A stretch of DNA of 32,589 bases. Origin: Candidatus Baltobacteraceae bacterium (lineage in GTDB: Bacteria; Vulcanimicrobiota; Vulcanimicrobiia; Vulcanimicrobiales; Vulcanimicrobiaceae). Numbering within the stretch: position 1 is the first letter of the stretch; each line of letters opens with the position of its first letter. The notes beneath the pieces were generated by a model. The model worked only from the letters and a program-made list of their open reading frames with translations, had not been told where the DNA came from and made no database searches. Below are positions 6,214 to 25,644 of the stretch, piece after piece. The stretch is taken from NCBI GenBank assembly GCA_035502855.1, contig DATJTX010000011.1, positions 1-32,589 of the forward strand, in the 5' to 3' direction. The position numbers and the translations under genes are program-made.

Positions 6214-6254
6214 GGCCTCAGCTTTCCCCGGCAGGGCGCAAGCGCCCGCCTGGG

Positions 6255-8816: not shown

Positions 8817-9501
8817 CGTTCGTCTTCGCAAAGCCCGCACGCAGTTCACCGTCGACGTGCGCTTTCGGGTGGCATCCGGCGAGGCGTGCGCAATCTTCGG
8901 CGCGTCGGGCGCGGGGAAGAGCACGATTCTTGCTTGCATCGCAGGGGCCGAGATTCCCGACGACGGCGAAATACGGCTTGACGACGACGCGCTCTTTCCG
9001 CCGCCGTTGCCGCTGCATCGCCGGCCGCTCGGCTATCTGACGCAGGACGCGCATCTCTTCCCACATTTACGCGTGAGCGAGAACGTGCGCTTCGGTCTGA
9101 CCAACGGCGCGCGCGGAGCCGATTCGTGGGTTACGCAGTTGCGCGAGCGTTTGCAGCTCGAACCGATCTGGAATGAGAACGTGCACGCGATTTCCGGCGG
9201 GCAAGCGCGGCGCGTCGCGCTCGCGCGGATGCTGGCGCGCAAGCCGCGGCTCGTTCTGCTCGATGAGCCCTTCGCCGGGCTGGATCGATATCTGGTACGC
9301 GAATTGGTCGCCGCGCTCGCCGATTGGCAGTGCCAACTTCGTTTCACCATGCTCGTCGTCGATCACGAAGCGGATCTACTTGAACAGCTTTGCGCTCGGG
9401 CGATTGCGATCGAGCGAGGGCGCGTCGTGCAGGATGCTCCCTGGCACGCGCTCAAATCGGCTCCCGCGACGCCGCTGCTCGCGCGTATTCTCGCGCCGTA
9501 A
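8809..9501 (+). CDS. Molybdate/tungstate-type ABC transporter ATPase
   Basis: This is the energising subunit of the importer. The GTG at 8809, overlapping the permease end by 8 bp, gives a 230-aa single ABC domain. Walker A is GASGAGKST (about 31-39), the Q-loop is LTQDAHLFPHL, the signature is ISGGQARRVALARML, Walker B is LVLLDEPFAGLD and the H-loop is VVDHEAD. The C-terminal Mop/TOBE regulatory domain of classical ModC is absent, so this is a short form. The upstream extension of the frame lies inside the permease gene and is not used. Confidence 0.9.
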   Translation: MLDVRLRKARTQFTVDVRFRVASGEACAIFGASGAGKSTILACIAGAEIPDDGEIRLDDDALFPPPLPLHRRPLGYLTQDAHLFPHLRVSENVRFGLTNGARGADSWVTQLRERLQLEPIWNENVHAISGGQARRVALARMLARKPRLVLLDEPFAGLDRYLVRELVAALADWQCQLRFTMLVVDHEADLLEQLCARAIAIERGRVVQDAPWHALKSAPATPLLARILAP

Positions 9502-9512: not shown

Positions 9513-11972
9513 ATGGTCCGCCGACTCGCCGAGTTCATCTCGGCCGCTCTTGTTGCGATCGTTTTGACGGCGGCTGCTCCGTCGCCCGCACCGGCGCCGA
9601 CTGCGCTCGAAGCGTTCATGAAAGGCGCGACGATCCACCCGGGATTGATTCCGATCGTGGACAAAGCGGGCAAGACCTATTTGGAACTTTCGACCGCGCA
9701 ATTCGGCGAGGATTTCATCGAAACGTCGGTACCGGCGAGCGGAATGGGCGGCTTCGGTCCGGCGCCCGGCGAGCCGTACATCGCGCCGGCGCGTATCCTT
9801 CACTTCGAGCGATACGGCGAGACGATCGTGCTGCGCTGGCCGAACACCTACGCGTTGACCGCGAACGGCTCCGCGCAGCGCGCCGGGGTCGAGCAGTCGC
9901 TCCCGAACTCGATCGTAGCCGTCCTTCCAATCGAAGCGCAAGACGGCGAGCACGTCGTGATCTCCGCAGCCCCGTTCCTGGGCGACGTCGGGAATCTCGC
10001 GGACACCCTGAAGTATGCGGTGAAAAATCCCGCGCACGCCTATCATATCGACGCGACCAAGTCGTTCTTTCTCGCGACCAAGGCGTTTCCCGAGAACGAC
10101 GTGCTGCGCGTCGATCAGACCTGGACCTCGGCCGATCCCGATCTGGTCGATAACGCGCCGGATCCGCGCAGCATCGAAGTGCGCATCACCTATAACCTGA
10201 TCCAGGCGCCGAACGACGGATATGTGCCGCGCGTCTACGATCCCCGCGTCGGCTTTTTCTCGCAACCGCTGCTCGATTTCAGGAACGACACGCGGCTGCA
10301 GCGCACGATCGATTACATCATCCGCTGGAATTTCGGCACGCGCACGTCGAGCGCGCCGGCAAACGCGGCGAATCCGGTCGTCTATTATCTGAGCAGCGAC
10401 ATCCCGCCCGAGTACCGCCAGACGGTTCGCGACGCACTCTTGACGTGGAACAAAGCCTTCGCCAAAGTGGGCATCTTGAACGCGATCAAAGTCGAGCAAC
10501 AGCCCAGCGATCCGTCGTGGGACAGCGACGACATCCGCCACAACATGATTCGCTGGGTCGACACGAGCAATCCGGCCTACGGTGCGCAAGCCGAGATCAT
10601 CGACGACCCGCGTACCGGGGAAGAGATCAACGTCGGCGTGAACTTCGATGCGGCCGTGCCCATGCACGGACGGCTCGATTACAAGTACGCCGTCGCTCCG
10701 GCGCGTGGTCTGCCCGACTCGCTTGCCGCCGAGAATGCGTTTGCGCAGAACCTGCTTCGCTCGGTCGTTCTTCACGAATCCGGCCACGATTTCGGTCTGC
10801 AGCACAACTTCATCGCTCACGAAGCCTATTCGGCGCGTCAACTCCAGAGCAAATCGTTCACCGACCGTTACGGCATCGCAAGCTCGGTGATGGAATACGC
10901 GCCGATCAACCTCTGGCCGAAAGGCACGCCGCAGGGCGACTACGTGCAGCTCGTGCTTGGGCCGTATGACTACTACGCGATCCAGTACGGCTACGGCCTC
11001 GTTCCGAACGCACCGAATTGGACAAATCCATGGTTTCGTTTCGCGAGCGACGAGGACGCACGTGAGTTCGCCGGCGGGCATTCGATCGATCCGCGCGTGC
11101 AGACCTTCAACCTCACCAACGATCCGCTGGCGTGGTGCAAAACGCAGGCGGCGATGTATCACGGCTTGATGGACTCGGTCAATGCGCGATTTCCCGAGCG
11201 CGGCATGCCCTACGATGAGGCGCGCGCGGCGTTCGTGACCGATATGAGCGGCTACCTGCGCTGCGTGTACGATCCGGTGCACACGATCGGCGGCGAGTAT
11301 CTCTCGCGCGCACAGCGCGGCGATCCCGGCGCGCTCGCACCGCTGACGCCGGTAACGCTGGCGCAGGACCGTGACGCCTGGGATCAGCTCGACGCCGGCC
11401 TCTTCTCCGAGGCGGCGTGGCACTTCAATCCGGCGGTGCTCGACACGCTGACCTATTCCGAGATCAGCGTGCCGTTGTTCAGCGCGAAGTGGGCCTACGA
11501 TCCCGCACCCCATCACGGAGTTTCGATCTTGAGCACGGTCGGCGCGGCGCAGCAATCGGCGCTCGCGGAACTCTTCTCCCCGATTCGTCTGCAGCGGATC
11601 GACGAGTTCTCGCTGCGCTATCCGCCGGGAAAGACGATGACGCTCACCGATCTCTTCGATTGGACGCGGGCGGGCATTTTCGGCGACATCGCGGGCGGGG
11701 CCGTGACGCACGAAGGGCCGGTCCGGCGAAATCTGCAGACCATGTACGCGACGTTTCTGGGACAAATGGTGACCGCACCGCGGCCCGGAACGCCGGGCGA
11801 CGCGCAGGCGCTCGCTCGCCTGCAACTCGAGGATCTGCGCAGCGACACGAGCGCCGCGCTTTCGCGGCGGGGCCTCGACGAAATGACGCGCGCACAATTG
11901 GAATCGCTGCGCGCCATCGCCGAGCAGTCGCTTTCGGCGCGCGCAACGATTGGAACGTCGCTCCACCCATAG
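9513..11972 (+). CDS. Secreted zinc-dependent metalloprotease, DUF5117/DUF4953 type
   Basis: The 819-aa protein has an N-terminal signal peptide (about 1-22, MVRRLAEFIS...TAAA) and a beta-rich DUF5117-type region (about 40-280, with IDATKSFFLATKAFPEND). The catalytic half carries the metzincin-like zinc motif HESGHDFGLQH at about 421-431. It also has the following Met-turn-like SVMEYAPINL and LGPYDYYAIQYGY, which are hallmarks of the DUF4953 family. The C-terminal part is helical. It probably degrades proteins or peptides in the periplasm or outside the cell. The start is fixed by AGGAGG. It follows the transporter ATPase by 11 bp, so it may share that transcript despite the unrelated role. 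Functionally it fits better with the peptide-utilisation genes downstream. Confidence 0.88.
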   Translation: MVRRLAEFISAALVAIVLTAAAPSPAPAPTALEAFMKGATIHPGLIPIVDKAGKTYLELSTAQFGEDFIETSVPASGMGGFGPAPGEPYIAPARILHFERYGETIVLRWPNTYALTANGSAQRAGVEQSLPNSIVAVLPIEAQDGEHVVISAAPFLGDVGNLADTLKYAVKNPAHAYHIDATKSFFLATKAFPENDVLRVDQTWTSADPDLVDNAPDPRSIEVRITYNLIQAPNDGYVPRVYDPRVGFFSQPLLDFRNDTRLQRTIDYIIRWNFGTRTSSAPANAANPVVYYLSSDIPPEYRQTVRDALLTWNKAFAKVGILNAIKVEQQPSDPSWDSDDIRHNMIRWVDTSNPAYGAQAEIIDDPRTGEEINVGVNFDAAVPMHGRLDYKYAVAPARGLPDSLAAENAFAQNLLRSVVLHESGHDFGLQHNFIAHEAYSARQLQSKSFTDRYGIASSVMEYAPINLWPKGTPQGDYVQLVLGPYDYYAIQYGYGLVPNAPNWTNPWFRFASDEDAREFAGGHSIDPRVQTFNLTNDPLAWCKTQAAMYHGLMDSVNARFPERGMPYDEARAAFVTDMSGYLRCVYDPVHTIGGEYLSRAQRGDPGALAPLTPVTLAQDRDAWDQLDAGLFSEAAWHFNPAVLDTLTYSEISVPLFSAKWAYDPAPHHGVSILSTVGAAQQSALAELFSPIRLQRIDEFSLRYPPGKTMTLTDLFDWTRAGIFGDIAGGAVTHEGPVRRNLQTMYATFLGQMVTAPRPGTPGDAQALARLQLEDLRSDTSAALSRRGLDEMTRAQLESLRAIAEQSLSARATIGTSLHP

Positions 11973-12094
11973 GATTTAATTATTCCATAACCCTTGCAAT
12001 TGTTGGCATAATTAGATTACGAAGAGGTATTATTTGGTATAGCGTTGCGCGCATGCCACAGGAGCGGCACCGCGCGTCAGAGCAGCCGTAGGGC
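11973..12094 (+). promoter_or_regulatory. AT-rich intergenic region, probable promoter of the aminotransferase operon
   Basis: About 75 bases here (roughly 11973-12048) are strikingly AT-rich against a GC-rich background and contain several TATAAT-like hexamers (for example TATTAT and CATAAT). I cannot fix a convincing -35/-10 pair. The base composition and position before a new gene block suggest a promoter. No clear terminator hairpin is visible for the protease gene. Confidence 0.35.
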
Positions 12095-13282
12095 ATGCAA
12101 ACACTCGCGCGGCGAGCCATGCGGCTGCCGGGGCCGCTCCATCCGGATTCGGCCGATGCCATTTCACTGGACTCCGGCTATGCGTTTCCGGAGATCTTCC
12201 CGGATCTGACCCGCGCCGCGGCGCGGGCGCTGACCGTTTTTCGGAGCGAGTCGCTGCAGTACGGCTCGCCCTACGGATTGCGGCCCATGCGTGAGTGGAT
12301 CGCTCAATACATGCGCGACGACGGCGCCGCGGTTACCGCGGAGAACGTGATCGTCGTCAACGGCGCGAAGCACGGTCTGGAGTTGATCTGCCGCCTGCTG
12401 GTCGACGACGGTGACGCGGTCGTCGTAACCGGACCGACGTACTTCACCGCGATTCCGATCCTACGCAGTTTCGGCCTGACGTTCATCGAGGTGCCGCAGG
12501 ACGAGGAAGGTCTCGACGTCGTCATGCTCGCCAAGCGGCTCGCCCAGCGCGAACGCGACCGGTTGCCCGCCCCGAAGTTCATCTACGACGTTCCCGACTT
12601 TCACAATCCGAGCGGTATCACGATGTCGCTGCGACGGCGGCAGGCGTTGCTTGCCCTCGCGACGTCGCGAAGCATTCCGATCGTCGAGGATAGTCCCTAT
12701 CGCCGGTTGCGCTTCGAGGGTTCGTCGGAGCCGTCGCTCAAATCGCTCGACCGCTCCGGCATCGTCTTTGCGCTCGGTACGTTCTCCAAATTGATTGCGC
12801 CGGGCTTACGGATCGGTTGGATCTGTGCCGAGGCCGATTCGATCGTGCGGATCGCGCAGCTCAAGAGCGACGGTGGAACTGCGCCGATGACGCAGCGCAT
12901 CATCGTCGAATTTTTTGCCGACGGAGGCCTCGAGCCGCAAATCGCGCGCGCGCGCGCCGCGTACGGGGAGCATCGCGATCGCATGATCGAAGCCGTCCGG
13001 CGCGACCTTCCAAGCGCCGTTTTCACGCCTCCTCACGGCGGATATTATCTCTGGCTGCGCTTCCCCGACGGCATCGACACCGGCGTGCTGGCCGAACGCG
13101 CTTTTGAAGCGGGGGTGTCGCCGATCGCCGGGAACGCATTCTTTGCCGCCGATGACCCGTCGTCGGCGCGGGCACAGGGGATCCCAAGCCATTACATGCG
13201 GCTCGCCTACAGCAACGCGACGCCGGATCGGATCGACCGCGGAGTGAAACTGCTGGCGGACACGCTTCGTTCGATGGAGTAG
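12095..13282 (+). CDS. PLP-dependent aminotransferase, class I/II (ARO8/LysN-like)
   Basis: Fold-type I aminotransferase of 395 residues, cytoplasmic. Visible elements are YGSPYGLRPMREWIA (about 57-70), VVNGAKHGLELICRLL (88-102), GPTYF (113-117), the FHNPSG motif with Asn171, VEDSPYRRLRF with the PLP-nitrogen Asp199, and the Schiff-base lysine in GTFSKLIAPGLRIGW (Lys232). The pattern matches the MocR/2-aminoadipate aminotransferase subgroup, but there is no N-terminal GntR DNA-binding domain, so it is a stand-alone enzyme. The amino-acid substrate is unknown. Its TAG overlaps the GTG of the next gene by one base, indicating an operon with a peptide-binding lipoprotein and a role in using imported amino acids. 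Confidence 0.9.
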   Translation: MQTLARRAMRLPGPLHPDSADAISLDSGYAFPEIFPDLTRAAARALTVFRSESLQYGSPYGLRPMREWIAQYMRDDGAAVTAENVIVVNGAKHGLELICRLLVDDGDAVVVTGPTYFTAIPILRSFGLTFIEVPQDEEGLDVVMLAKRLAQRERDRLPAPKFIYDVPDFHNPSGITMSLRRRQALLALATSRSIPIVEDSPYRRLRFEGSSEPSLKSLDRSGIVFALGTFSKLIAPGLRIGWICAEADSIVRIAQLKSDGGTAPMTQRIIVEFFADGGLEPQIARARAAYGEHRDRMIEAVRRDLPSAVFTPPHGGYYLWLRFPDGIDTGVLAERAFEAGVSPIAGNAFFAADDPSSARAQGIPSHYMRLAYSNATPDRIDRGVKLLADTLRSME

Positions 13283-14895
13283 TGCGTCTTCTAGCCCTAC
13301 TTGCCGCGGTCGTACTTCTGAGTGCCTGCACGCTACGCGATAGCGCGCCGCTCGACCAAACGACGCTGATCATCGGGGAGCAGCAGGAGCCGATCTCACT
13401 CAATCCGGCGCTCGATAACGGCCAACTCTCAACGCAGTTCGGCGAGTTGCTCTTTTCGTATCTGGTGAAGTACGACGATCGCGGTGACTTGATCGGCGAC
13501 GTCGCAACCGAGGTGCCGACGCTCGCGAATGGTGGGATCAGCGGCGACGGCCGCACGATCACCTATCATCTGCGTCGCGACGTCCGTTTCGCCGACGGCG
13601 TGCCGCTGACGGCCAAGGATTGCGTCTGGTCGATCGACGCGATCGACAATCCGGCCAACAACGTGCAGACGCGTTACGGTTACGATCGTATCGTCTCGGC
13701 GCAGGCGCCCAACGATTACACGCTCGTGCTCCACTTGCGTGCGCCGTTTGCGCCGATCGTCTCGCTGGTGCTTGCACCGCAAGGCTTTCCGATTCTGCCG
13801 GAACATTTGCTCGCGAAATACCCCGACTTCAACCATCTGGCGTTCGACTCGAAACCGGTCGGTTCGGGGCCGTACGTGGTCGTGCGCTGGCTTCGCGACG
13901 ACCAGGTCGAGATGCGGGCGAATCCGCGGTATTTTCTCGGCGAGCCGGAGATCCGCCGGCTGATCGTGCGCTTCATCGCGGTTCCCTCCGAAGGCACGAC
14001 GCAGCTGGCCACACACGAGATCCAGGCGTACTTCAACGAGCAGGACTACTCGCAGTATCCGCAGCTGCGCGCGCTGCGCGGTTACCGCGTCATGGACACG
14101 CCGGTCGACGCCGTCGACGCGCTGATTTTCAACACGCAAAATGCCGTGACGAACGACGCGCGCGTTCGCCGCGCGCTCGCCGAAGCGATCGATTTCCGCA
14201 CGCTCGTGGCAACGGCGTACCGTGGCGCGCTCGATAGCCGGCAGGCCGGGCGCGGGCTCTTTCTCTGGGCATTCGATTCGAAGGCCTATCCCGATGTGCC
14301 GTACGATCCCGCCGCCGCGCGGCGGCTGCTCGACGAAGCGGGTTGGAAGCGCGGCCGCGAGGGAGTCCGGCACAAGGACGGACGGCCGTTGGATCTGCGG
14401 TTGATCGTACAAGCCGGCGTGATCGGCGAAGCGGTTGCCGCCAACGAGATCGCGCAGTACGAGCGCGCCGCCGGAGCGCGCGTGACGATCCGCGAGTTCA
14501 ACGTCACGCAGTTCGGTGCGCCGGCCGCAATGGGAGGTCCGGTCTATGCCGGCAGATTCGACCTCGCGTTGTACTCGTTCGTGAACGGCGACGATCCCGA
14601 TACGACCGACCAGTTTGCGTGCGCCAACGTTCCCCCCAACGGATACAACAAGTCGCGGATCTGCGATCGGCGCATCGACGCGCTGCTCGCCGCCGGGCGT
14701 GCAACCTATGACCGGGCGCGCCGCGACGCCGTGTACGCGCGCCTGCAGTCGCTGCTCTACGCCGACTTACCGATCGTTTTGATCTATCAGCGTCGTGAGC
14801 TCGACGTTTTTCCCGACCGTCTGCGCGGGCCCAGCGGCTCCAACGATTCGGTTTTTTGGAACGTCGCGCGCTGGCGCTTCGCGCGCGGTGCCTGA
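13282..14895 (+). CDS. ABC transporter substrate-binding lipoprotein, peptide/opine family 5
   Basis: The GTG start lies within the TAGTG junction with the aminotransferase. A lipoprotein signal (MRLLALLAAVVLLSAC, Cys16) anchors it. The 537-aa protein shows the SBP_bac_5 (DppA/OppA) pattern: EQQEPISLNPALDN, LLFSYLVKYD, YHLRRDVRFADGVPLTAKDCVWSID, the conserved GSGPYVV, VRRALAEAIDF and YNKSRICDRRIDALL. Such proteins capture oligopeptides, dipeptides, opines or nickel. No permease or ATPase genes follow, so it must work with a transporter encoded elsewhere. Its last 109 bp overlap the end of the convergent Lrp-type gene. Confidence 0.88.
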   Translation: MRLLALLAAVVLLSACTLRDSAPLDQTTLIIGEQQEPISLNPALDNGQLSTQFGELLFSYLVKYDDRGDLIGDVATEVPTLANGGISGDGRTITYHLRRDVRFADGVPLTAKDCVWSIDAIDNPANNVQTRYGYDRIVSAQAPNDYTLVLHLRAPFAPIVSLVLAPQGFPILPEHLLAKYPDFNHLAFDSKPVGSGPYVVVRWLRDDQVEMRANPRYFLGEPEIRRLIVRFIAVPSEGTTQLATHEIQAYFNEQDYSQYPQLRALRGYRVMDTPVDAVDALIFNTQNAVTNDARVRRALAEAIDFRTLVATAYRGALDSRQAGRGLFLWAFDSKAYPDVPYDPAAARRLLDEAGWKRGREGVRHKDGRPLDLRLIVQAGVIGEAVAANEIAQYERAAGARVTIREFNVTQFGAPAAMGGPVYAGRFDLALYSFVNGDDPDTTDQFACANVPPNGYNKSRICDRRIDALLAAGRATYDRARRDAVYARLQSLLYADLPIVLIYQRRELDVFPDRLRGPSGSNDSVFWNVARWRFARGA

Positions 14896-15380
14896 ACCGC
14901 GGCACCCGGCTCGACGCCGTCGATCGGCAGCGGCGCGCTGCCCTCTTTGACGGATTCGAGCAGCACGCTCGACTGAATGCCGCGCACCCCGGCGACGTTG
15001 TAGAGCGTCCCAAAGAGAAAGTTGGAGTATTCGGCGAGATCTTTCGCGACGATCTCGAGCAGTACGCCCGACTCCCCGGTCAGGATGTAGCACGCGACGA
15101 CTTGCGGCAGTTTGGCAATGTCCTCGCGCAAGGTTCGTGCGCGCGGCCACTCGATCTGAAGACGGGCGAACGCCGTGACCCCCAGTCCGATCGCCGGCCG
15201 GTTGAGAATCGACCGATAACCTAGAATAAAGCCCCCTTGTTCCATGCGCCGGACGCGGCGCAGACAGGGCGAGGGAGAGAGCCCGACGCTCTTCGCAAGA
15301 TCGGCGTTGGAAAGGCGACTATTGCGCTGAAGGGCAATCAATATGCGCTTATCTATCGCGTCGAGCTCGATTCTTGGCAC
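14787..15380 (-). CDS. Lrp/AsnC family transcriptional regulator with C-terminal extension
   Basis: Feast/famine regulators sense amino acids. The 197-aa protein has the winged HTH (about 4-55: LDAIDKRILIALQRNSRLSNADLAKSVGLSPSPCLRRVRRME). A RAM ligand-binding/oligomerisation domain follows (about 66-142, with VVACYILTGESGVLLEIVAKDL). GTG at 15380 is chosen because GGGGAG lies 7 bases upstream on this strand; the longer frame runs antisense into the TonB gene. The family is usually about 150-160 aa. The extra basic tail of about 40 residues is antisense to the end of the binding-protein gene and may be dispensable. Divergent to the TonB receptor gene with an 85-bp gap, so it probably controls that operon, itself, or both. 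Confidence 0.88.
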   Translation of the reverse strand: MPRIELDAIDKRILIALQRNSRLSNADLAKSVGLSPSPCLRRVRRMEQGGFILGYRSILNRPAIGLGVTAFARLQIEWPRARTLREDIAKLPQVVACYILTGESGVLLEIVAKDLAEYSNFLFGTLYNVAGVRGIQSSVLLESVKEGSAPLPIDGVEPGAAVQAPRAKRQRATFQKTESLEPLGPRRRSGKTSSSRR

Positions 15381-15414
15381 AAAACACTCCCCTAATACGG
15401 AAATTTGGTACAAG
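15374..15414. promoter_or_regulatory. Candidate Lrp-type operator: two direct repeats 31 bp apart
   Basis: TTGGCACAAA at 15374-15383 and TTGGTACAAG at 15405-15414 match at 8 of 10 positions. They lie 31 bp apart, close to three helical turns, which would place both on one DNA face. The first copy overlaps the Lrp-type gene's start codon; the second is in the middle of the divergent promoter region. Phased repeats are usual for Lrp-family binding, but the assignment is inferred. Confidence 0.4.
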
Positions 15415-15465
15415 ATTGCTGAGTGGGCGGAGGGCTTCGCAGCGGTATCGTGGCAAGCCTTCACG

Positions 15466-18390
15466 ATGCAAAGCCTTCTTCGGAACTCGCTACTCGCGGT
15501 AGTGATGGCCGCGATGACCTCTATTCCGCTCGGTGCGCTCGCTGCGGAAACCGGCGTCGTTTCCGGCACCGTGCACACCGCCGACGGCGCGCCGATCGGC
15601 GGCGCTGCCGTGTCGCTGCGCGGCGCGGCGACGCTCGGAACCACGACCGACGCGGCCGGCGCGTTTACGATTGCGAACGTACCGCCGGGAGAATATACGC
15701 TGCTCGTTTCGAAGGCGAGCTTTCAAGAGTACCGCAACGACACGGTGCTGGTCTTCATCGGCGAAAACGAGAGCCTGGCCGTGACGCTGGTACCGGTGAG
15801 CTTCTCGGGGCTGCGCACGATCGCAACGGTGTCGACCAACGCGGCCGGCCAACCGCAGATGAACACCTCGAGCGCGGCGGTCACTTCGATCAGCAACCAG
15901 GTCTTCCAGGACCAAGGTGTGACGCAGGTTACCAAGATCCTCAACGAGACCCCCGGCATCATCTCGGCCGCCTCACCCGAAAACGGGAACGGCGCATCCG
16001 CCGGCGCGCTGCAGAGCATTCAAATTCGCGGCGCGTTGCCGTACGAGACCGAGCAGCTCATCGACGGTCACCCGACGGCCCTCTCGCTCGGCGGAACCTA
16101 CAATCCGATCTATCTCAACCCGCTCTTGCTCGACTCGATCGAGATCGTGAAGGGTCCGGGCGCGATGCCGGAAGAGATCAACTACGCGATCGGCGGAACC
16201 GTCAACTACGTCACGCTGCAGCCGACGCGTACGAATCAATCGACGCTGCTGCTTGGCAGCGACAACTGGGGCGGCATCACGACCGCGCTGCGCGCGACCG
16301 GTTCCACCAAAACCCACTGGCTCGATTACGCGCTGGGTTTTGCGACCGACGGCGCACCTGGGCCGCTCCGGAATTACCCGATCGCCGGGTCGCAGATCAA
16401 CCTCGTCGCAGGCTTGGGTGCCCCCACGATCAACGGTCAGCAGATCGCGCAGTCGGTCGAGGGCTTCGGGCTCTATCCGCCAACCAGCAACTACGCGGGC
16501 ATCGGCGGATTGCAATTCTACGACCCGCTCTACATCTGTTGCTACGACGTCAATACGGCCTATTACTCGCGCAACGAACTGGCGAAGCTACGCTTCAATC
16601 TCTCGCCGTTCACTTCGCTCACGGTCAGTTATCTCGGCGCGCAGGCGTTCAGCAATGTCGGCGGCGTCGACCTGACGTCGCTTTCGCCGATCGGCACCGA
16701 TAGCTCCAGCTTCTCGGTCTTCGAGCCGTGCGCGAACGGCTTCAACGCCACGCCCCCAGCGTGTCCGGGTTACACCGGCTCCGTCGCACCGGGCACCTCG
16801 ATTCCCTACGACCTTGAAGCTTTCATTCCGCAGTACGAGTCGGTGCAGCAGAATCTGTTTCAGGCCGAATTTCGCACGAGCTTCGGCAACTGGGCGATGC
16901 TCGGGCGCTACTTCAGCGGTTCCGATACGGACTACGCGTACATTCAAACCGCTCCCGACGGCAGCTTGAGCTTCAGCGGCGCAACCTATGGCGGCATCAT
17001 GGTGTGTCCGTCCGGCGCCACGTACGATCCCGCGACCGGCGCGTGCAGTTCGGGTGCTCCCACGACCGAGTATTTCAGCGGACAAACGGCAACGCTGAGC
17101 GTAGCTGACGCGACCAACGAAGATCTCGAGCAGGATCATCTGCGCGGCGAGTCGCTGCTCTTTACGCGCCCGTTCGGCAACGGCGACGACGTTTCGTTCT
17201 CGATCGATCAGGCGCACCACGATTCGCTCTCCTATACCGACGACGCGACCGCCGGTCCGCCGTTCTTCGGCTTGCCCCCCGGCGCCGGCCAGAACTTCAC
17301 GACCGAGATGGTGCGCGGGCACTTCTACGTCGCTCCGCGCGTGTTTCTTGGCTTGGCAAACTACGGGATTCAGTACAGCAGTCACTACACGGACAATGGT
17401 GGAGCGACGTGGCAGAACGCGACACGCGGCTACGACGCACCGCGCATGGGTCTAACGTGGGCGCCGAACAACGATACGACGTGGCGGCTCGGAGCCGGGT
17501 TTTCGATTGCGCCACCGGAACTCTCGCTGCTCTCCTCGCCGGGCACGACGCCGCTGCCGAACATCAACGGTGCGCCGACATACTACACGGAGAACCTCAA
17601 CAACGGCGCGATCGCGCCGGAAACGGCGTTCGGTGTCGATCTCGGCGTCGACCGCCGGCTGGATCGATCTACGCTGCTTTCCGCGGACGTGTACGACGAG
17701 ACGCTACGCAACGAGTTTCTCAGCAGCACCTCGCTCATCGGAACTTACGTTCCGCCGGGCGTCGAGCCTCCGCCGGCACCGTTGCCTCTCTACGCGACCG
17801 AAACGAGCAATCTCGGTCATGCGAGATACGCCGGCCTCGAAGTGATGTTAGAAGGAACGCCGCTGGTCGGCTGGGGCTATCGGATCCAGGGCGATCTGCA
17901 GCGCGCGTACGCATACGATCTGCCGCCGTACTTTTATTGCTCGGTTCCCGGACCGGGCTGCACGCCCAATACCAATCTCGGCATTCTACCCAACGCCAAT
18001 TGGAACGCGAGCGGCCTGGGATTCAACACGGTCAACGGTTCGGCTGTCCCCTATATGATGGGGTACGCGGAAGTGAACTACCGCACGCCGCACGGGACGT
18101 ATTATCTCTTCGGGTCGACCTACTACGGAGAGAACAATACGTTCAGTTTACCGCCGTTCTTCATCTTCAACGCCGCCATTCGCGAACCGCTTCGTCCGGG
18201 AACCAATTTGCAACTCTCGGTCGATAACATCTTCGACACATACGGCTCGAGTTGGACCAACTACTTCGGCGGCATTAATGCGCCGCTGCTGCCGGGAACC
18301 GGTTTGGTCGGTCTCACCGTCGGCGGCAACTACGGTCCGACGAGCGTCCACGTGGAGTTGATCCAGAATCTCGGCTCGACGCCGCACTAA
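15466..18390 (+). CDS. TonB-dependent receptor with N-terminal carboxypeptidase-regulatory-like domain (Oar/SusC-like)
   Basis: This outer-membrane active-transport channel has 974 residues. ATG at 15466 gives a signal peptide ending ALA (about residue 26). A CarboxypepD_reg-like beta domain (about 28-108: VVSGTVHTADGAPIGGAAVSLRG...GAFTIANVPPGEYTLLVSK) is followed by a plug domain (about 130-245). The plug carries the family signatures VTKILNETPGI, IQIRGA, QLIDGHP and the IEIVKGPGAMPEEINYAIGGTVNYV box. The remaining roughly 720 residues are beta-barrel-like. Several short Cys-containing loops (YICCYDV, SVPGPGCTPN) are probably extracellular. Substrate unknown; the neighbouring peptidase, hydrolase and Lrp regulator suggest peptides or amino-acid-containing compounds. 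It is followed after 12 bp, in the same frame, by the S9 peptidase gene. Confidence 0.92.
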   Translation: MQSLLRNSLLAVVMAAMTSIPLGALAAETGVVSGTVHTADGAPIGGAAVSLRGAATLGTTTDAAGAFTIANVPPGEYTLLVSKASFQEYRNDTVLVFIGENESLAVTLVPVSFSGLRTIATVSTNAAGQPQMNTSSAAVTSISNQVFQDQGVTQVTKILNETPGIISAASPENGNGASAGALQSIQIRGALPYETEQLIDGHPTALSLGGTYNPIYLNPLLLDSIEIVKGPGAMPEEINYAIGGTVNYVTLQPTRTNQSTLLLGSDNWGGITTALRATGSTKTHWLDYALGFATDGAPGPLRNYPIAGSQINLVAGLGAPTINGQQIAQSVEGFGLYPPTSNYAGIGGLQFYDPLYICCYDVNTAYYSRNELAKLRFNLSPFTSLTVSYLGAQAFSNVGGVDLTSLSPIGTDSSSFSVFEPCANGFNATPPACPGYTGSVAPGTSIPYDLEAFIPQYESVQQNLFQAEFRTSFGNWAMLGRYFSGSDTDYAYIQTAPDGSLSFSGATYGGIMVCPSGATYDPATGACSSGAPTTEYFSGQTATLSVADATNEDLEQDHLRGESLLFTRPFGNGDDVSFSIDQAHHDSLSYTDDATAGPPFFGLPPGAGQNFTTEMVRGHFYVAPRVFLGLANYGIQYSSHYTDNGGATWQNATRGYDAPRMGLTWAPNNDTTWRLGAGFSIAPPELSLLSSPGTTPLPNINGAPTYYTENLNNGAIAPETAFGVDLGVDRRLDRSTLLSADVYDETLRNEFLSSTSLIGTYVPPGVEPPPAPLPLYATETSNLGHARYAGLEVMLEGTPLVGWGYRIQGDLQRAYAYDLPPYFYCSVPGPGCTPNTNLGILPNANWNASGLGFNTVNGSAVPYMMGYAEVNYRTPHGTYYLFGSTYYGENNTFSLPPFFIFNAAIREPLRPGTNLQLSVDNIFDTYGSSWTNYFGGINAPLLPGTGLVGLTVGGNYGPTSVHVELIQNLGSTPH

Positions 18391-18402
18391 GGATTACCGA
18401 CG

Positions 18403-20334
18403 ATGATCACTCCAGCGGCGGCGCACGCGCGTCCGTTTACTTTCGATGACTATTACCGCATCGTCGGCGTGGAGAGCCCCCAGCTTTCTCCCGACGGCAA
18501 GCAGATCGTCGTGGTCGTCTCGCACACCGATGCCAAAGCGGATCGCAGCGATCGTGAGCTCGTCCTAGTCAACGTGAACGACGGATCGCAGCGTGTTCTC
18601 ACGCACGACCGCAAGGACGTCGGCGATCCGCAGTGGTCTCCCGACGGCACGCAACTCGCATTCGTCGACGTGGTTCAAAACGGCAAAGAGGAGACGGCGC
18701 AGGTTTGGGTCATGCCGATGAACGGGGGCGACGCGCATCCGGTGACGAGCGCAAAAAACAGCGTGGAGGCGTATGCGTGGCGGCCGGACGGGAAGGCGAT
18801 CGCCTTCGTCTCGCCTGACGATCCGGCGAACGCCGCGGCGCTCAAAGCGCACGACCAACTGTGGACCGTCGGCGACAACTCGTATCTCTTGCGCGCCGAA
18901 CCGATTCCGGCCCATTTGTGGCTGCAAACGATCGGCGGCCAACCGGAGCGATTGACGCAAGGGTCGTGGAGCGTCTATCCGGATCAGCTCTCGTTTTCGT
19001 CCGGTGGAAAGTATTTGGCGTTCAGCCGGATGCCGGACGCCTATCACGATAGCCTGTTCAAGACGCGCATTGCCGTCTACGACTTTGCTACCAAAACCGT
19101 GAGCATCGTCGGCGACGATCGCTGGAGTTGGAGTCCCGCGTTTGCCCCCGAGGGCGATCGTATCGCGTATGAGGGAGCTGCGCATCAATCGGTCGTGCTC
19201 CAACAGGATCTCGTTGCAGCCACGCCGGGTTCGCACGAAACACGCGAGATCGCGCCCTCGCTCGATCGCAACGTAGAATTTCTCGCGTGGATGCATCACG
19301 GCGACGAAATCGCCGTCGCCGCGAACGATCATGTCACGACGCCGATGTGGATCGTGAGCGGCGGGAAAGCCCGTCGCGTCGACATGGGCGACGTCGCTTT
19401 CGCCGGCAGCGGAAGCGCGGCGAACGGTGCGGTGGCGTTCATCGGCTCGACGCCGCACGACCCGGGCGAACTCTATTACCTCGCACCGGGCGCATCGAAA
19501 CCGGCGAAGCTGACCGACTTCAACCACGCAACCGCCGCACTCGATTTGGCGGACTCGCGCGAGCTGACTTGGAAAAACGGCGGCTTCGACGAGGACGGCG
19601 TGCTGACGTATCCGCTCGGTTACGAACGCACGAAGACCTATCCGCTCGTACTGGTCATTCACGGCGGCCCGACTTTCGGAGCCTCGACGACCGCCTTCGA
19701 TCCGCTCGTGCAGATCCTCGCAGCCCACGGCTACGTGGTGTTGCAACCGAACTATCGCGGCAGCGACAACCTCGGTTTTGCGTACGCGCACGCGATCATC
19801 GGTGACGAGCCGCCGCTCGGCCCGGGCGAGGATTGCGTTGCCGGCCTCAAAGCCGTCGAAGCCGCGATTTCGATCGATCCGGCGCGTGTCGGCGTTTCCG
19901 GTTGGTCGGCCGGCGGATGGCTGACCTCGTGGCTGATCACCCACTACGACTATTGGAAAGCCGCGGTGAGCGGCGCAGCCGTCGACGACGCGGTGATGCA
20001 GTACACGCTCAGCGAGATCGACTCGTACATGGCCGATCTGTTCGGCGGCCTCACGCCGTGGACGCCGCACGGCCTCGACGCGTACCGCAAGAGCTCGCCG
20101 GTTACCTACGCCGCGAACGTCAGCGCGGCGACGTTGATCTTGAGCGACGATTACGATCCGCGGGCACCGACGCCGGAAGCATACGAATTCTATTCGGCGC
20201 TGCGCGACCAGGGGAAGACGGTGCAGTTCGTCGCCGCGCGCGCCTACGGCCACCACCCATCCGATCCGGTCCAACGCATGGCGATCGATCGCACGTGGGC
20301 GCAGTGGTTTTTCCGCTACATTCCGAGCAATTGA
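18403..20334 (+). CDS. S9 family (prolyl oligopeptidase-like) serine peptidase
   Basis: The 643-aa protein has an N-terminal beta-propeller with TolB/WD40-like blades (SPQLSPDGKQIVVVVS, DPQWSPDGTQLAFV, AYAWRPDGKAIAFVS) and a C-terminal alpha/beta-hydrolase domain. The likely triad is Ser502 in GWSAGGW, Asp585 in SDDYDPRAP and His617 or 618 in YGHHPSDP. The oxyanion-side motif VIHGGPTFG is also present. S9 enzymes cleave short peptides. The start ATG is 8 bases after AAGGA. No normal signal peptide is present: the first residues MITPAAAHARPF look like only the cleavage region of one, and the frame upstream closes at the TonB stop. The enzyme may therefore be cytoplasmic, or the start is misjudged. 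Co-transcribed with the TonB receptor. Confidence 0.9.
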   Translation: MITPAAAHARPFTFDDYYRIVGVESPQLSPDGKQIVVVVSHTDAKADRSDRELVLVNVNDGSQRVLTHDRKDVGDPQWSPDGTQLAFVDVVQNGKEETAQVWVMPMNGGDAHPVTSAKNSVEAYAWRPDGKAIAFVSPDDPANAAALKAHDQLWTVGDNSYLLRAEPIPAHLWLQTIGGQPERLTQGSWSVYPDQLSFSSGGKYLAFSRMPDAYHDSLFKTRIAVYDFATKTVSIVGDDRWSWSPAFAPEGDRIAYEGAAHQSVVLQQDLVAATPGSHETREIAPSLDRNVEFLAWMHHGDEIAVAANDHVTTPMWIVSGGKARRVDMGDVAFAGSGSAANGAVAFIGSTPHDPGELYYLAPGASKPAKLTDFNHATAALDLADSRELTWKNGGFDEDGVLTYPLGYERTKTYPLVLVIHGGPTFGASTTAFDPLVQILAAHGYVVLQPNYRGSDNLGFAYAHAIIGDEPPLGPGEDCVAGLKAVEAAISIDPARVGVSGWSAGGWLTSWLITHYDYWKAAVSGAAVDDAVMQYTLSEIDSYMADLFGGLTPWTPHGLDAYRKSSPVTYAANVSAATLILSDDYDPRAPTPEAYEFYSALRDQGKTVQFVAARAYGHHPSDPVQRMAIDRTWAQWFFRYIPSN

Positions 20335-20350
20335 CGCAAAAGGGGATACG

Positions 20351-21079
20351 ATGCAAACCCGTTCGATTCGCAGAGAGATTCGCTTTCTTCGCTACTATTC
20401 GCTGGCCGTCACGCTGATCGCCGGTACATTCCTACTCGCGGCCGCGCACGAAGCGAGCAGCAATGCGACGATCGACACGCTCACCGTGCATCGCATCAAC
20501 GTCATCGATCGTGAAGGCAAGCTGGCCGTGGTCATAACCAGCCACGACGACTTTCCGCCGCCGATCGTCAACGGCAAGGCGCTCAAGCGTTCGAGCGGCG
20601 CGGACAACGGGCTCATTTTCTACAACGAGCGCGGTGACGAACAAGGTGGACTCACCTGGACCGGCATCAAGAAAGCCGACGGCACGTTCGCTTCCGGCAA
20701 TACGCTCTCGTTCGATACGGTCGTGACGGATCAATTGCTGCAAGTCGATGACGGTAACGACAACGGCAAGACGTATGCGTACATGGTTGGCTGGAATCGT
20801 CCGCGCTACGATTCGCCTGAGATGATGAACGTGATCCAGCAGGTCGAGAACGCCAAGACGATGGCCGAAAAGCGCGCGATCATCGCGCAGCACCCGAACC
20901 TGCGCGCGGCAACCCGCTTCCTGTTCGGATACGATCCGGATAATACCGCGCAGGTGATGCTGGCCGACGGAGCAGGCAAGCCGCGCATCAAGATGTTCGT
21001 CACCGCCGGTGGGCAGGCCGAGCTGCAATTCCTCGACGCCGACGGCAAGGTCGTCGCGCAATATCCGGAGGTGAAATAG
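20351..21079 (+). CDS. Conserved membrane-anchored/secreted protein of unknown function (242 aa)
   Basis: A single hydrophobic segment (about 16-33) after an Arg-rich start (MQTRSIRREIRFLRYY) would act as a signal anchor. The exported part begins with a recognisable but unnamed family pattern: DTLTVHRINVIDREGKLAVVITS, then GLIFYNERGDEQGGLTW, and near the end FLDADGKVVAQYPE. Proteins with this RINVvexdGxlrlvIsn ... GmlFyndeGdExGGL pattern occur beside secreted hydrolases in several phyla, as far as I recall; their function is unknown to me. AAGGGG lies about 7 bases before ATG. The TAG overlaps the GTG of the next gene by one base, so it is tied to the hydrolase translationally. Confidence 0.75.
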   Translation: MQTRSIRREIRFLRYYSLAVTLIAGTFLLAAAHEASSNATIDTLTVHRINVIDREGKLAVVITSHDDFPPPIVNGKALKRSSGADNGLIFYNERGDEQGGLTWTGIKKADGTFASGNTLSFDTVVTDQLLQVDDGNDNGKTYAYMVGWNRPRYDSPEMMNVIQQVENAKTMAEKRAIIAQHPNLRAATRFLFGYDPDNTAQVMLADGAGKPRIKMFVTAGGQAELQFLDADGKVVAQYPEVK

Positions 21080-22743
21080 TGATCGCGGCGCCTCTCCTCG
21101 CGTTGCTCGTGAACGTCAGTTTCCCCGCGTCGGTACATTCGGCACCGATCACCGGACGTGTCTACGTCGTCCTGACGAAAAGCGATAAACTCGATCCACG
21201 CATCCAAGTTCTCTCGCCGGAAGAATCGCCGCCGTTCTTTGCCGCCGACGTGAGCGCGCTTGCCCCGGGGCACGACACGGTGATCGACGGATCGAGCGAG
21301 GGCTATCCGCTCGCGAGCATCAATGACGTGCCGGCCGGCGATTACTACGCCGAGGCGTTCGTCGACATCTACGTTCGCTATCATCGCGCCGACGGCCATG
21401 TCATCTGGGCGCACGAACAGTGGGCGCCACAGATCTTTTCTCTCGACCCCGGCAATCTCCACAGCGCGATCCAACGCGTGCACATCGATGCGGCGCACCA
21501 CGCCACCCTGCGTTTCGTGATGAATCAGGTCATCTCGGAGAAAGACATTGCCAACCTGCTCGGCGGACCCGGCTACGACAGCGACACGCCGTGGATCAAA
21601 CACATTCGCATCCTCAGCCCCTCGCTCACGAAGTTCTGGGGAAGCCCGATCTATCTGGGCGCGACGATCCTTTTGCCAAAAGGGTATGCATCGCATCCGA
21701 ACTCGCGCTATCCGGTCGTCTACAACCAAGGACATTTCTACGATCGGATACCCTGGGAGTTCACGACCGACAACAGCACCGAGACACCCGCCGCGGCGGC
21801 CGCCGGCAAACGCGCGGGGATCGGGACCGGCTACGAGTTCTACGAAGCCTGGAACTCGGATCATTTTCCGCGCTTCCTGCTGATCACGTTCCAGCACCCC
21901 TGCCCGTTCTTCGACGACTCGTACGCGGTCAACGGTGCGAACTGCGGTCCGTTCGGCGACGCGCTGATGAATGAGTTGATTCCCTATCTCGAAACGCATT
22001 TTCGCGTGTTGCGCGAAGCGCGAGCGCGCTTCACCGAAGGCGGATCGACCGGCGGGTGGGAGTCGCTAGCGCTGATCTTGCAGCACCCCACGTTCTTCGG
22101 TCACGCGTACGTCTTCGATCCGGACCCGATCGATTTCAGCGCTTTCCAGCTCGACGATCTCTACACCGACGCGAGCGGCTGGTTCGCGCCCGCGCCGCCG
22201 GACGATCCTTGGCATCGCTACCCGCGCTATTTTTCGCGCATGCCCAACGGGCAGAACCTCGCGACCGAACAGGAGTTGAGCCGATACGAATTGGCGATGG
22301 GTTCGCACGGGCGTTCGGAGTATCAGCTCGACGGCTGGTGGGCGATCTTCGATCCGGCCGGACCCGACGGTTATCCGAAACCACTCTGGAACATGCGCAC
22401 CGGCGTCATCGATAAAAGCGTCGTGCAATACGCGCGCGATCACGGCTACGATTTGGTTGCCTACATGAAGGCACAGTGGCCGAAGATCGGTCCCGATCTG
22501 ACCGGCAAGCTACGCTTCTTCGTCGGCGACATGGACAGCTATTTCCTCAACCTTGCCGTCTATAAGGCACAGGACTTCTTGCAGAGCGTTACGCCGAACC
22601 CGAAAGCGACGTTCGAATACGGGCGTCCGATGAAAGGCCACGGCTGGCATCCGATGACCTGGGCCGCGTTGTTAGAGATGATGGCGCGGGACGTGCGCAA
22701 CGCGACGCCGGCGGGCGTAAGCAACGCGGAGTGGAACTACTAG
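21079..22743 (+). CDS. Secreted alpha/beta hydrolase, esterase D-like
   Basis: The GTG start lies in a TAGTG junction with the gene upstream. A signal peptide of about 22 residues (MIAAPLLALLVNVSFPASVHSA) is followed by a roughly 190-residue beta-rich N-terminal domain. An esterase-type alpha/beta-hydrolase domain comes next, with the nucleophile in GGSTGGW (Ser323) and a possible catalytic His in KGHGWHPMTW (about 525-532). The segment SRYPVVYNQGHF corresponds to the usual RYPVlYlqHG strand of esterase D/enterochelin-esterase-like enzymes. It probably hydrolyses an ester or amide bond in the periplasm. Substrate unknown. It lies in the TonB receptor operon, so it may process the compound imported by that receptor. 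Confidence 0.8.
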   Translation: MIAAPLLALLVNVSFPASVHSAPITGRVYVVLTKSDKLDPRIQVLSPEESPPFFAADVSALAPGHDTVIDGSSEGYPLASINDVPAGDYYAEAFVDIYVRYHRADGHVIWAHEQWAPQIFSLDPGNLHSAIQRVHIDAAHHATLRFVMNQVISEKDIANLLGGPGYDSDTPWIKHIRILSPSLTKFWGSPIYLGATILLPKGYASHPNSRYPVVYNQGHFYDRIPWEFTTDNSTETPAAAAAGKRAGIGTGYEFYEAWNSDHFPRFLLITFQHPCPFFDDSYAVNGANCGPFGDALMNELIPYLETHFRVLREARARFTEGGSTGGWESLALILQHPTFFGHAYVFDPDPIDFSAFQLDDLYTDASGWFAPAPPDDPWHRYPRYFSRMPNGQNLATEQELSRYELAMGSHGRSEYQLDGWWAIFDPAGPDGYPKPLWNMRTGVIDKSVVQYARDHGYDLVAYMKAQWPKIGPDLTGKLRFFVGDMDSYFLNLAVYKAQDFLQSVTPNPKATFEYGRPMKGHGWHPMTWAALLEMMARDVRNATPAGVSNAEWNY

Positions 22744-22746
22744 CGC

Positions 22747-25644
22747 ATGATTCCTGCACTGCTTCTCGGCGCCGCGCTCGAGTTTCGCAACATCGGGCCG
22801 TTTGACGGACGGCTCGACACCGTTGCGGGCGTTCCATCTGACCCGGCGATCTATTACGCGGGTGGTCTCGGCGGCATGTTCAAGAGCACGAACGGCGGCG
22901 AAACGTGGTCGTCGATCTTCAATAACGAGCCGGTCAGTTCGATCAGCGCCATCGCGGTCGCGCCGTCGAATCCGTCGATTCTGTACGCCGGTACCGGCGA
23001 GCAGAATTTGCGCAACGACGTTGCGTTCGGCGACGGCATGTGGCGCTCGAGCGACGCGGGTAAAACCTGGACGCATGACGGACTCGACGCCACCGGATCG
23101 ATCGCCGCGGTCGCGGTGGATGCGAGCAATCCGGATCGCGTCTTCGTCGCGGCGCTCGGCGACGTGTATCGCGCCAGCACCGATCGCGGTATCTACCGGA
23201 CGACCGACGGCGGCAAGACCTGGCAAAAAGTTCTCTATACCGACGATCGCACCGGCGGCTCGAGCATCGCGATCGATCCGGCCGATCCGAACGTGATCTT
23301 CGCCGGCATGTGGGAAGGCTGGCGCAACGCGTATCATCTCACCAGCGGCGGTCCCAACGACGGCATCTACGAATCGACCGACGGCGGCGACCACTGGACG
23401 CGCTTGCAAGGCCACGGCCTGCCGAGCGGCGTCACCGGACGCATCGCGCTCGCGTTCGCGCCGAGCAATCCGCAGCGGATCTATGCGATGATCGAATCAT
23501 CGCAAGGAACGCTCTGGCGCAGCGACGATCGCGGCAAGACCTGGACGATGGTGAACACCTCACACGGCATCGATCAGCGGCCGTTCTATTTCACCTCGCT
23601 CGCCGTCGATCCGAAGAACGAGAATCACGTCTACTTCATGTCGGTCGAGATTTGGCAAACCACCGACGGCGGAAAGACGGTTCACACGATCAAGCGTCCG
23701 GCCGGGTTCGGCGACAACCATCAGATGTGGATCGATCCCTCGAATCCCGCGCGCCTTGCCGTTGCCAGTGATGACGGCATCGCCGTAAGCGTCGACGGAA
23801 CGAACACGCTGACCTGGAAGCCGATGCCGATCGCGCAGCCGTATCATCTCGACGTCGATGACCGCGTTCCGTACACGATTTGCGCCGAGGATCAAGACGC
23901 CGGCAGCGCCTGCGGCCCGAGCAACAGCCTCGAATACCAAGGCATCGGCCTAGGCGACTTTTTCTACGCCGGCGGCGGGGAGAGCGGTTGGATTCTTTTC
24001 GACCGGGCGGATTCGAACATCATCTACGGCGACGGCTACCAAGGATCGCTCACGCGATTCGATCGCCGAACCACGCAAGTGCATGCGATCAACGTGTGGC
24101 CCGAAGACGCGATGGGGTGGCCGGCGGCTCCGCTCAAATATCGCTTTCAATGGACCTCGCCGCTCGCGATGCCGCCGCAGCATCCGCACCGGCTCTTCAT
24201 GGGCGGGAACCGAATCTTCGAAACCGACGACGGCGGGGCCACCTGGCGCCCGATCAGCCCCGACCTGACCCGCAACAACAAGGCGCGCCAACAACTCTCC
24301 GGTACGCCGCTCACGCCCGACAATACCAGCGTCGAATATTACAACGTCGTCTTCAGCATCGGTCCGTCGAGCGTTCGCGACGGCGAAATTTGGGCCGGCA
24401 CCGACGACGGCCGCGTGTGGCTCACGCGTGATGACGGATCGCACTGGCAAAACGTCACGCCGCCGCAGTTCCGTTTCGTGCCGAAACAGCATTGGCTGCG
24501 CGTCGACTACGTCGCGCCCTCGCCCTTCGACGCGGCGACGGCCTATGTCGCGGCCGACGCGCACAAGTGGGGCGATCGCGCACCGCATCTGTTCGTCACC
24601 CACGACTACGGCAAGAGCTGGAGCGTGATCTCGAACGGATTGCCGCAGAACAGCTACACGCGCATGATTCGCCCCGACCCGTTCCGCCGAGGTATGCTCT
24701 ACGCCGGAACCGAGACCGCGCTCTGGTATTCCTACGACGACGGCGCGTCGTGGACGCAATTCGGGTTCGGATTGCCGACGGCCCCGTATTACGACTTCAA
24801 GATCCAGCGGCGCTTCGACGATCTCGTCGTTGCGACGCACGGGCGCGGCATCTGGATTCTCGACGACCTGCATCCGCTGCAAGAGATGAGCGCAGCCGTC
24901 CGCGCGCAGCCGCTGCACCTCTTCACGCTGCGCGATGCCTATCGCTTCGAGCTGCGGCCGAGCCTGGCGACCGCGTCGATCTGGGGAGAGAACCCCGGAT
25001 ACGGCGCCGACGTCGATTTCTGGTTGTCGGCGGTGCCCGCACACGCTCACGTGACGGTTGAAATTCTCGACGGAGCGCACGTGATCCGAACGATCGGCGT
25101 GAAGAAACCGATCGCCGGCATCAATCGCGTTTGGTGGAATCTGCGCTACGACAAGATCGAACTTGCTGCAAACTACGTTCCTTGGAACCCCGGCGGCTTT
25201 GCGGGGCCGCTCGCCATTCCGGGACGCTACACCGTTCGAGTGCTTGCCGGCGGACGAACCGTCCAAGGGTCGGTGCGCGTGCTGCAAGACCCGCGCTCGA
25301 CCGCGTCGCCCGCGGCCCTGCGGGAGCAACTCGCGTTCGTGCTGCGCATTCGCGGGGATCTCGTGTCGCTGACGAAAACGATCGATCGTTTACAGGCGCT
25401 CAAGAAAAAGAAACCCGCGCAGGCCGCGGCGATCGACACCCTGCTGCGCCGCATTTACACGCCGGGTTTGACCCAGGGCGAGGACGCGCTGCGCGTGCAG
25501 GAGCGCGTCTACGGGCGTTTGAGCTTCCTCGCATCGGATGTTCGCTCCGGCGAGGCGGCGCCGACACGCGCTGATTACCAGGTCTTGCGATTGCTCGAAA
25601 CGCAGGCAAATACGCTCAACGCCCAGGCACGCGCCTATTTCTGA
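22747..25644 (+). CDS. BNR/VPS10 (sortilin)-like beta-propeller protein (965 aa)
   Basis: The protein consists mainly of BNR/Asp-box propeller repeats: STNGGETWSSIF, SSDAGKTWTHDG, TTDGGKTWQKVL, STDGGDHWTRLQ, SDDRGKTWTMVN, TTDGGKTVHTI, TDDGGATWRPIS, TRDDGSHWQNV, THDYGKSWSVIS and SYDDGASWTQFG. The C-terminal 250 residues carry a beta-rich domain (PGRYTVRVLAGG, about 825-840) and a helical tail. Such proteins resemble VPS10/sortilin-type or glycosyl-hydrolase-like proteins that commonly accompany TonB receptors and peptidases in soil bacteria; no activity is established. The family normally has a full signal peptide. Here only MIPALLLGAALEFRNIG precedes the first blade, so export is uncertain. 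It starts 3 bp after the hydrolase stop and overlaps the convergent decarboxylase gene by 10 bp. Confidence 0.85.
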   Translation: MIPALLLGAALEFRNIGPFDGRLDTVAGVPSDPAIYYAGGLGGMFKSTNGGETWSSIFNNEPVSSISAIAVAPSNPSILYAGTGEQNLRNDVAFGDGMWRSSDAGKTWTHDGLDATGSIAAVAVDASNPDRVFVAALGDVYRASTDRGIYRTTDGGKTWQKVLYTDDRTGGSSIAIDPADPNVIFAGMWEGWRNAYHLTSGGPNDGIYESTDGGDHWTRLQGHGLPSGVTGRIALAFAPSNPQRIYAMIESSQGTLWRSDDRGKTWTMVNTSHGIDQRPFYFTSLAVDPKNENHVYFMSVEIWQTTDGGKTVHTIKRPAGFGDNHQMWIDPSNPARLAVASDDGIAVSVDGTNTLTWKPMPIAQPYHLDVDDRVPYTICAEDQDAGSACGPSNSLEYQGIGLGDFFYAGGGESGWILFDRADSNIIYGDGYQGSLTRFDRRTTQVHAINVWPEDAMGWPAAPLKYRFQWTSPLAMPPQHPHRLFMGGNRIFETDDGGATWRPISPDLTRNNKARQQLSGTPLTPDNTSVEYYNVVFSIGPSSVRDGEIWAGTDDGRVWLTRDDGSHWQNVTPPQFRFVPKQHWLRVDYVAPSPFDAATAYVAADAHKWGDRAPHLFVTHDYGKSWSVISNGLPQNSYTRMIRPDPFRRGMLYAGTETALWYSYDDGASWTQFGFGLPTAPYYDFKIQRRFDDLVVATHGRGIWILDDLHPLQEMSAAVRAQPLHLFTLRDAYRFELRPSLATASIWGENPGYGADVDFWLSAVPAHAHVTVEILDGAHVIRTIGVKKPIAGINRVWWNLRYDKIELAANYVPWNPGGFAGPLAIPGRYTVRVLAGGRTVQGSVRVLQDPRSTASPAALREQLAFVLRIRGDLVSLTKTIDRLQALKKKKPAQAAAIDTLLRRIYTPGLTQGEDALRVQERVYGRLSFLASDVRSGEAAPTRADYQVLRLLETQANTLNAQARAYF

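Follow-up and report, generated by a model that had tools for sequence, protein, structure and literature searches.

In Pseudomonas aeruginosa, one DppBCDF permease is served by the five binding proteins DppA1–A5, whose ligands are peptides, and this provides an experimental precedent for a shared permease (PMC4206461). Methanobactin uptake relies on the TonB-dependent transporter MbnT and the OppA-related binding protein MbnE, for which neither a permease nor any other inner-membrane step is known (PMC7558416). The DgcN-DgcA pathway has been described for D-glutamate (PMC10845958). In lasso-peptide isopeptidase loci, an S9-type enzyme comes directly after a TonB receptor. Loci of the SusCD type, which serve the utilisation of polysaccharides or peptides, combine an outer-membrane TonB receptor with a lipoprotein, hydrolases and a regulator. 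The locus described here resembles this last arrangement. However, its lipoprotein belongs to the SBP_bac_5 family, no SusD family occurs among the Pfam matches, and the receptor reaches 49.1 bits on the SusC/RagA model TIGR04056, of which the cut-off is 368.

The locus most likely comes from a soil-dwelling member of the Eremiobacterota, a little-studied and nearly uncultivated phylum that is common in poor soils. The window, meaning the whole stretch of DNA that we analysed, is the entire contig G000:C11 of 32,589 bases in an assembly of 3.33 Mb and 39 contigs. Its G+C content is even, at about 60–66% over most of its length, so the composition gives no sign of recent import. No tRNA was found in the window. 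Judged by sequence, positions 12095–25644 are a real conserved island of eight genes: an aminotransferase (AT), a solute-binding protein (SBP), an Lrp-type regulator (Lrp), a TonB-dependent receptor (TonB), an S9 peptidase (S9), a protein of 242 aa (Unk), an esterase (Est) and a BNR propeller protein (BNR) (Table 1). We favour, at somewhat better than even confidence, the reading that the eight genes are inherited and function together as a single island, which scavenges a peptide or a peptide-like compound, and in which the SBP feeds a shared OppBC-DF transporter and Lrp controls the receptor operon.

Table 1. Features of the island and of its upstream neighbour, in positions of the window.
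Feature	Position	Strand	Evidence or remark
Met-zincin metalloprotease (DUF4953/DUF5117)	9513..11972	+	Pfam; neighbour, probably outside the unit
PLP aminotransferase (AT), kynurenine/2-aminoadipate aminotransferase-like	12095..13282	+	Pfam Aminotran_1_2
OppA/DppA-type solute-binding lipoprotein (SBP_bac_5), lipobox LSAC	13282..14895	+	PF00496 E 1.4e-64
Lrp/AsnC-type regulator, GTG start 15383	14787..15383	-	PF13404 E 3.6e-18, PF01037 E 9.3e-15
Conserved block ATTTGGTACAAGATTGCT, candidate operator or promoter core	15403..15420	.	Four orthologous intergenic regions aligned
Oar-like TonB-dependent receptor, N-terminal CarboxypepD_reg	15466..18390	+	PF13620, PF07715, PF00593
S9 serine peptidase, acylaminoacyl/dipeptidyl-peptidase type	18403..20334	+	Peptidase_S9 E 4.9e-35
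Unk, membrane-anchored or secreted, 242 aa	20351..21079	+	Orthologues 61-68% identical at the same place
Esterase (Est), CE1/feruloyl-esterase-like fold, extra N-terminal domain	21079..22743	+	PF00756 E 1.8e-8
Sortilin/VPS10-type BNR beta-propeller protein	22747..25644	+	PF15902 E 1.7e-36

All open reading frames of the initial annotation are located where it had placed them, and Pfam assigns them to Met-zincin, Aminotran_1_2, SBP_bac_5, HTH_AsnC, TonB, Peptidase_S9, Esterase and Sortilin/BNR. Every part of the island is covered by a known family except Unk, for which no Pfam or NCBIfam family matched. The tight spacing is also as it had described, with one-base overlaps at the TAGTG junctions of AT/SBP and Unk/Est and gaps of 12, 16 and 3 bp in the remainder of the TonB run. 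The SBP and Lrp genes run towards each other and share 109 bp. Lrp is divergent to the receptor, and an intergenic space of 82 bp (15384–15465) separates the two. For the receptor, ATG 15466 is a more likely start than 15343, because a predicted signal peptide follows the former and the latter falls within the Lrp gene. In the intergenic space, an 18-bp block is alignable in four orthologues. We do not claim a palindromic Lrp operator in this block, since its half-sites differ in register between the orthologues.

The SBP carries a lipoprotein signal, as expected of the binding protein of an Opp/Dpp-type importer. The ligands of SBP_bac_5 proteins also include nickel, heme and opines, among others. 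The same genome encodes 11 SBP_bac_5 proteins, together with a sole Opp-type permease pair (OppBC, C31:27958-29533, found by BPD_transp_1 search) and, at a separate site, a sole OppDF ATPase pair (C31:243012-244183, found by oligo_HPY search); only the permease pair at 28 kb of C31 carries OppC_N, and the other BPD_transp_1 matches in the genome are typed to family level. We notice that the OppBC and OppDF pairs (L082, L128) are far apart, that no SBP gene adjoins either, and that in several relatives the permease pair adjoins a beta-keto-acid-cleavage-like gene.

Across 31 genomes of the family, each at least 95% complete, we counted 333 SBPs and 53 OppC. Exactly one OppC is present in 19 of these genomes, with 4–19 SBPs each. 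Eight genomes from other families of the class have 10–17 SBPs and 2–5 OppC, and seven from other classes of the phylum have 2–5 SBPs and 1–3 OppC. The surplus of OppA-type proteins is therefore a trait of the class. The counts make it most likely that a single inner-membrane transporter serves both the orphan SBP and some ten other binding proteins encoded at scattered sites in the genome. The initial annotation had regarded an OppA-type protein lacking its own permease as part of what might be new. Permease and ATPase genes are indeed missing from the island, but this is better explained by a family in which genomes generally encode some ten OppA-type proteins and, in many cases, a single OppBC. 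The likeness to P. aeruginosa thus lies in having several OppA/DppA-type proteins per permease, here judged from gene counts. In contrast to that system, whose five binding proteins are not described as individually coupled to TonB receptors and degradation genes, the number of SBPs per OppC in the 19 genomes reaches the range given above, the permease and ATPases are encoded apart, and SBPs lie inside receptor islands. Neither the extent of this surplus nor the tie of SBPs to receptor islands was found in the open-licence papers that we searched.

The receptor shows the Oar-like make-up of an N-terminal CarboxypepD_reg domain, a plug and a beta-barrel. In ten genomes with both receptor and SBP data, we grouped receptors by identity to that of the window. 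Among those at least 42% identical, 11 of 13 have an SBP_bac_5 gene no more than 10 kb away, compared with 1.24 expected from the SBP density; the p value of ~3e-10, which assumes independence, overstates the significance, because the receptors were grouped with the data already in view and are related to one another. One of the two unpaired receptors sits at a contig end. None of the 11 less similar receptors has an SBP gene within 10 kb.

Genes near the related receptor/SBP pairs encode DgcN-like DUF1611 proteins, DgcA/dipeptide-epimerase-like proteins, class-C beta-lactamase-like hydrolases, an M81/MlrC peptidase and an amidohydrolase, where the NCBIfam assignments are taken from best hits that score below the curated cut-offs. 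MlrC is the microcystin-degradation type of M81 peptidase. Two loci with such neighbours are in the same genome as the window (L072, L093), and these, along with L063, L064, L069, L071 and L074, combine TonB and OppA-type genes with varying sets of DgcN-like, DgcA-like, beta-lactamase-like and MlrC/M81 genes. The neighbours point to peptides as the general substrate class, some perhaps with D-residues. Peptide import, as proposed in the initial annotation, gains indirect support from them, and it is on this basis that we infer the substrate class; for the island itself, a peptide or an ester-containing peptide is likely. The DgcN- and DgcA-like genes recall the D-glutamate pathway, but they are absent from the window island.

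The regulator consists of an AsnC-type helix-turn-helix and an AsnC_trans_reg ligand-binding domain, the make-up of the Lrp/AsnC family. Its nearest relatives outside the island (L065, L066 and L067, from two genera; 53–58% identity) are divergent to 4-hydroxyphenylpyruvate dioxygenase genes, one of which scored 432 bits against a cut-off of 277. This location points to the sensing of aromatic amino acids, and by analogy the Lrp of the window may sense one.

The same components could be arranged around a different cargo. The solved relatives of the SBP include MbnE (5icq), and the island, like the methanobactin system, joins a TonB-dependent receptor to an OppA-related binding protein, so that it might import a metal chelator or a peptide-derived carrier instead of a nutrient. 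The peptidase and esterase would then open the carrier after uptake, and the presence of both beside a TonB receptor would suit release from a chelator built of esters or amides. We consider this unlikely. The receptor has a CarboxypepD_reg domain, and no NCBIfam siderophore receptor model scores above its cut-off. Receptors of the same clade adjoin amino-acid and peptide enzymes, the linked switch is an Lrp regulator instead of a metal regulator, and biosynthesis genes were not recognised in the window. The Mbn system, in contrast, carries metal, and we know of no S9, esterase, BNR, aminotransferase or Lrp in the MbnT/MbnE set.

The best solved relatives of AT are multi-substrate, alanine-glyoxylate, 2-aminoadipate and kynurenine aminotransferases. 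S9 combines PF00326 with propeller repeats, its Ser/Asp/His triad motifs are conserved in the orthologues, as in the S9 family, and the closest solved structures are those of S9 and acyl-peptide hydrolases. In the window (18403-18440), S9 starts with MITPAAAHARPF and has lost the N-terminal signal peptide kept by its orthologues; no in-frame ATG, GTG or TTG start was found upstream. Its compartment is therefore uncertain, and it may be cytoplasmic here. The AlphaFold model of Est has a mean pLDDT of 79.9, and its best fold match is the soil esterase 8z91 (TM 0.66–0.68 on target); feruloyl and acetylxylan esterases come next, with a low overall TM. The nucleophile motif GGSTGG is invariant in 12 relatives and places the Ser in a G-x-S-x-G pattern, in agreement with an alpha/beta-hydrolase of the CE1-like (PF00756) kind. 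The model of Unk is mainly beta after an N-terminal helix, at low confidence, and with a mean pLDDT of 55.9 it was too poor to be used for a fold assignment.

As in lasso-peptide isopeptidase loci, the S9 gene follows a TonB receptor, and S9 matches the lasso-peptide isopeptidase model NF033523 with 134.9 bits. Together, an esterase, a peptidase and an aminotransferase would be in keeping with a compound that contains ester as well as amide bonds. It is conceivable, at a low probability, that the receptor, the SBP, an isopeptidase-like S9 and the esterase serve the scavenging of one defined natural product, such as a lasso peptide, a depsipeptide or an acylated peptide. However, the isopeptidase cut-off is 400, the Dpp5 model scores higher (159.6), no lasso maturation genes were recognised, and neither the compound nor a precursor gene was identified. 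This reading is a narrower form of peptide scavenging, and not its opposite.

The initial annotation had named scattered homologues as the outcome that would speak against an island. Instead, the core order is kept in a second genus, and all families recur, rearranged, in the genome G098 (JASHOG). In the second Eremiobacterota genus (L055, G019:C38), the eight genes have identical order and orientation, with tblastn identities of 49–75% (AT 62%, SBP 75%, Lrp 72%, TonB 49%, S9 60%, Unk 65%, Est 68%, BNR 56%). L056 (G054:C65) has the same order from Lrp onward, and its contig begins inside Lrp. Position-matched TonB orthologues are 47–49% identical in L055, L056 and L104, AT orthologues 61–62% in L055 and L104, and SBP orthologues 74.5–75% in L055 and L101. 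The Lrp of L055 holds the same divergent position beside the receptor, and that of L104 is 68% identical. BNR lies directly downstream of the esterase in L055, L056, L100 and L101 (54–59%).

When the collection was scanned with the esterase alignment, nine loci in named MAGs were recovered; the close relatives are in 'Candidatus Eremiobacterota' MAGs and more distant ones in Acidobacteria, which makes Eremiobacterota the most likely source of the window. In G098, one rearranged locus (L104, L121) reads BNR, AT, Unk, Est, Lrp, TonB, S9, Unk, Est, Unk, S9, BNR. The other (L101/L119) reads SBP, S9, Unk, Est, BNR, without Lrp and TonB, so the two halves of the island can part. A match in L101/L119 to Lrp residues 168–198 was ruled out as an Lrp remnant, because Lrp overlaps the SBP gene and these residues correspond to the antisense strand of that gene's conserved end. 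Shorter runs are TonB-S9-Unk-Est (L103) and S9-Unk-Est-BNR (L100). In Acidobacteria (L105–L107), an esterase with 57–59% identity occurs with Unk and/or BNR, which suggests transfer or an older cassette. L105 holds, between two esterases, an Oar-like gene of TonB-receptor size, as judged by size and N-terminal sequence only. The distribution is patchy: Unk is found in 9 of 98 relative genomes, a close Lrp in 6 of 98, and the island is absent from most relatives, including G001, the only further member of the window's genus that was searched (an assembly 74% complete). In one further genome (G018:C25:88189-88765), a Unk homologue is broken into two parts that lie in different frames, which may reflect a pseudogene or a fault in the assembly. 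We did not find this particular gene set in the open-licence papers searched, and looking there for work that links Eremiobacterota to TonB and peptidases, or to oligopeptide transport, yielded nothing directly relevant.

That the island is two unrelated neighbours, an amino-acid/peptide unit AT-SBP-Lrp-TonB and a travelling S9-Unk-Est-BNR cassette that degrades something else, is suggested by the locus L101/L119, by the Acidobacterial esterases without AT, SBP or Lrp, and by an esterase fold closest to plant-ester hydrolases, but it is quite improbable, as the cassette directly follows the receptor in L055, L056, L103 and L104 and the window gaps are only 3–16 bp.

The zinc protease, which the initial annotation had included as a unit member, is probably not part of this conserved unit. 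In L055, the one relative where it could be checked, no trace of it was found in the 595 bases upstream of AT, and for this lack of conservation we reject it as the unit's first gene. Its own upstream neighbour in the window is an ABC-transporter set (7207-9501) composed of a ModA-like binding protein (SBP_bac_11), a BPD_transp_1 permease and an ATPase. An HTH/PBP_like regulator precedes this set, and the region 6086-9501 as a whole is an ordinary molybdate-type transporter set. A PPK2 (polyphosphate kinase 2) gene is at 5371-6927 on the minus strand. On the other side of the island, also on the minus strand, 26906-28870 encodes a membrane phosphatase of the SpoIIE type with a fused HATPase_c_2 domain; phosphatases related to it are near the TonB/SBP loci L068 and L070.

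For the peptide-scavenging island that we favour, the gene families suggest the following route. The Oar-like receptor would carry the compound over the outer membrane. S9 and the CE1-like esterase may trim it, in compartments that are uncertain, with Unk and the propeller as putative accessory proteins. The OppA-type lipoprotein would capture the fragments in the periplasm and, as the gene counts suggest, pass them to the single, separately encoded OppBC-DF that would serve all OppA-type proteins. Inside the cell, the aminotransferase may use an amino acid that is released. We speculate that the divergent Lrp reads such an amino acid and controls the receptor operon, in view of its position and the conserved block.

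Extended to the class, the picture is more tentative and somewhat short of an even chance. Many outer-membrane receptors for peptide-like compounds, each with its own OppA-type protein and processing enzymes, may act as spokes that converge on one transporter with separated permease and ATPase genes. The window would be one such spoke, in which S9-Unk-Est-BNR handles a compound with ester and amide bonds under an Lrp switch related to those beside tyrosine-degradation genes. The first Eremiobacterota isolate grew on yeast extract and not on the tested sugars or single amino acids (PMC9758169), a pattern that would fit peptide feeding. If the picture is true, orphan binding proteins networked on one transporter would explain a peptide diet from genome structure, and binding proteins without a neighbouring permease should then not be called non-functional.
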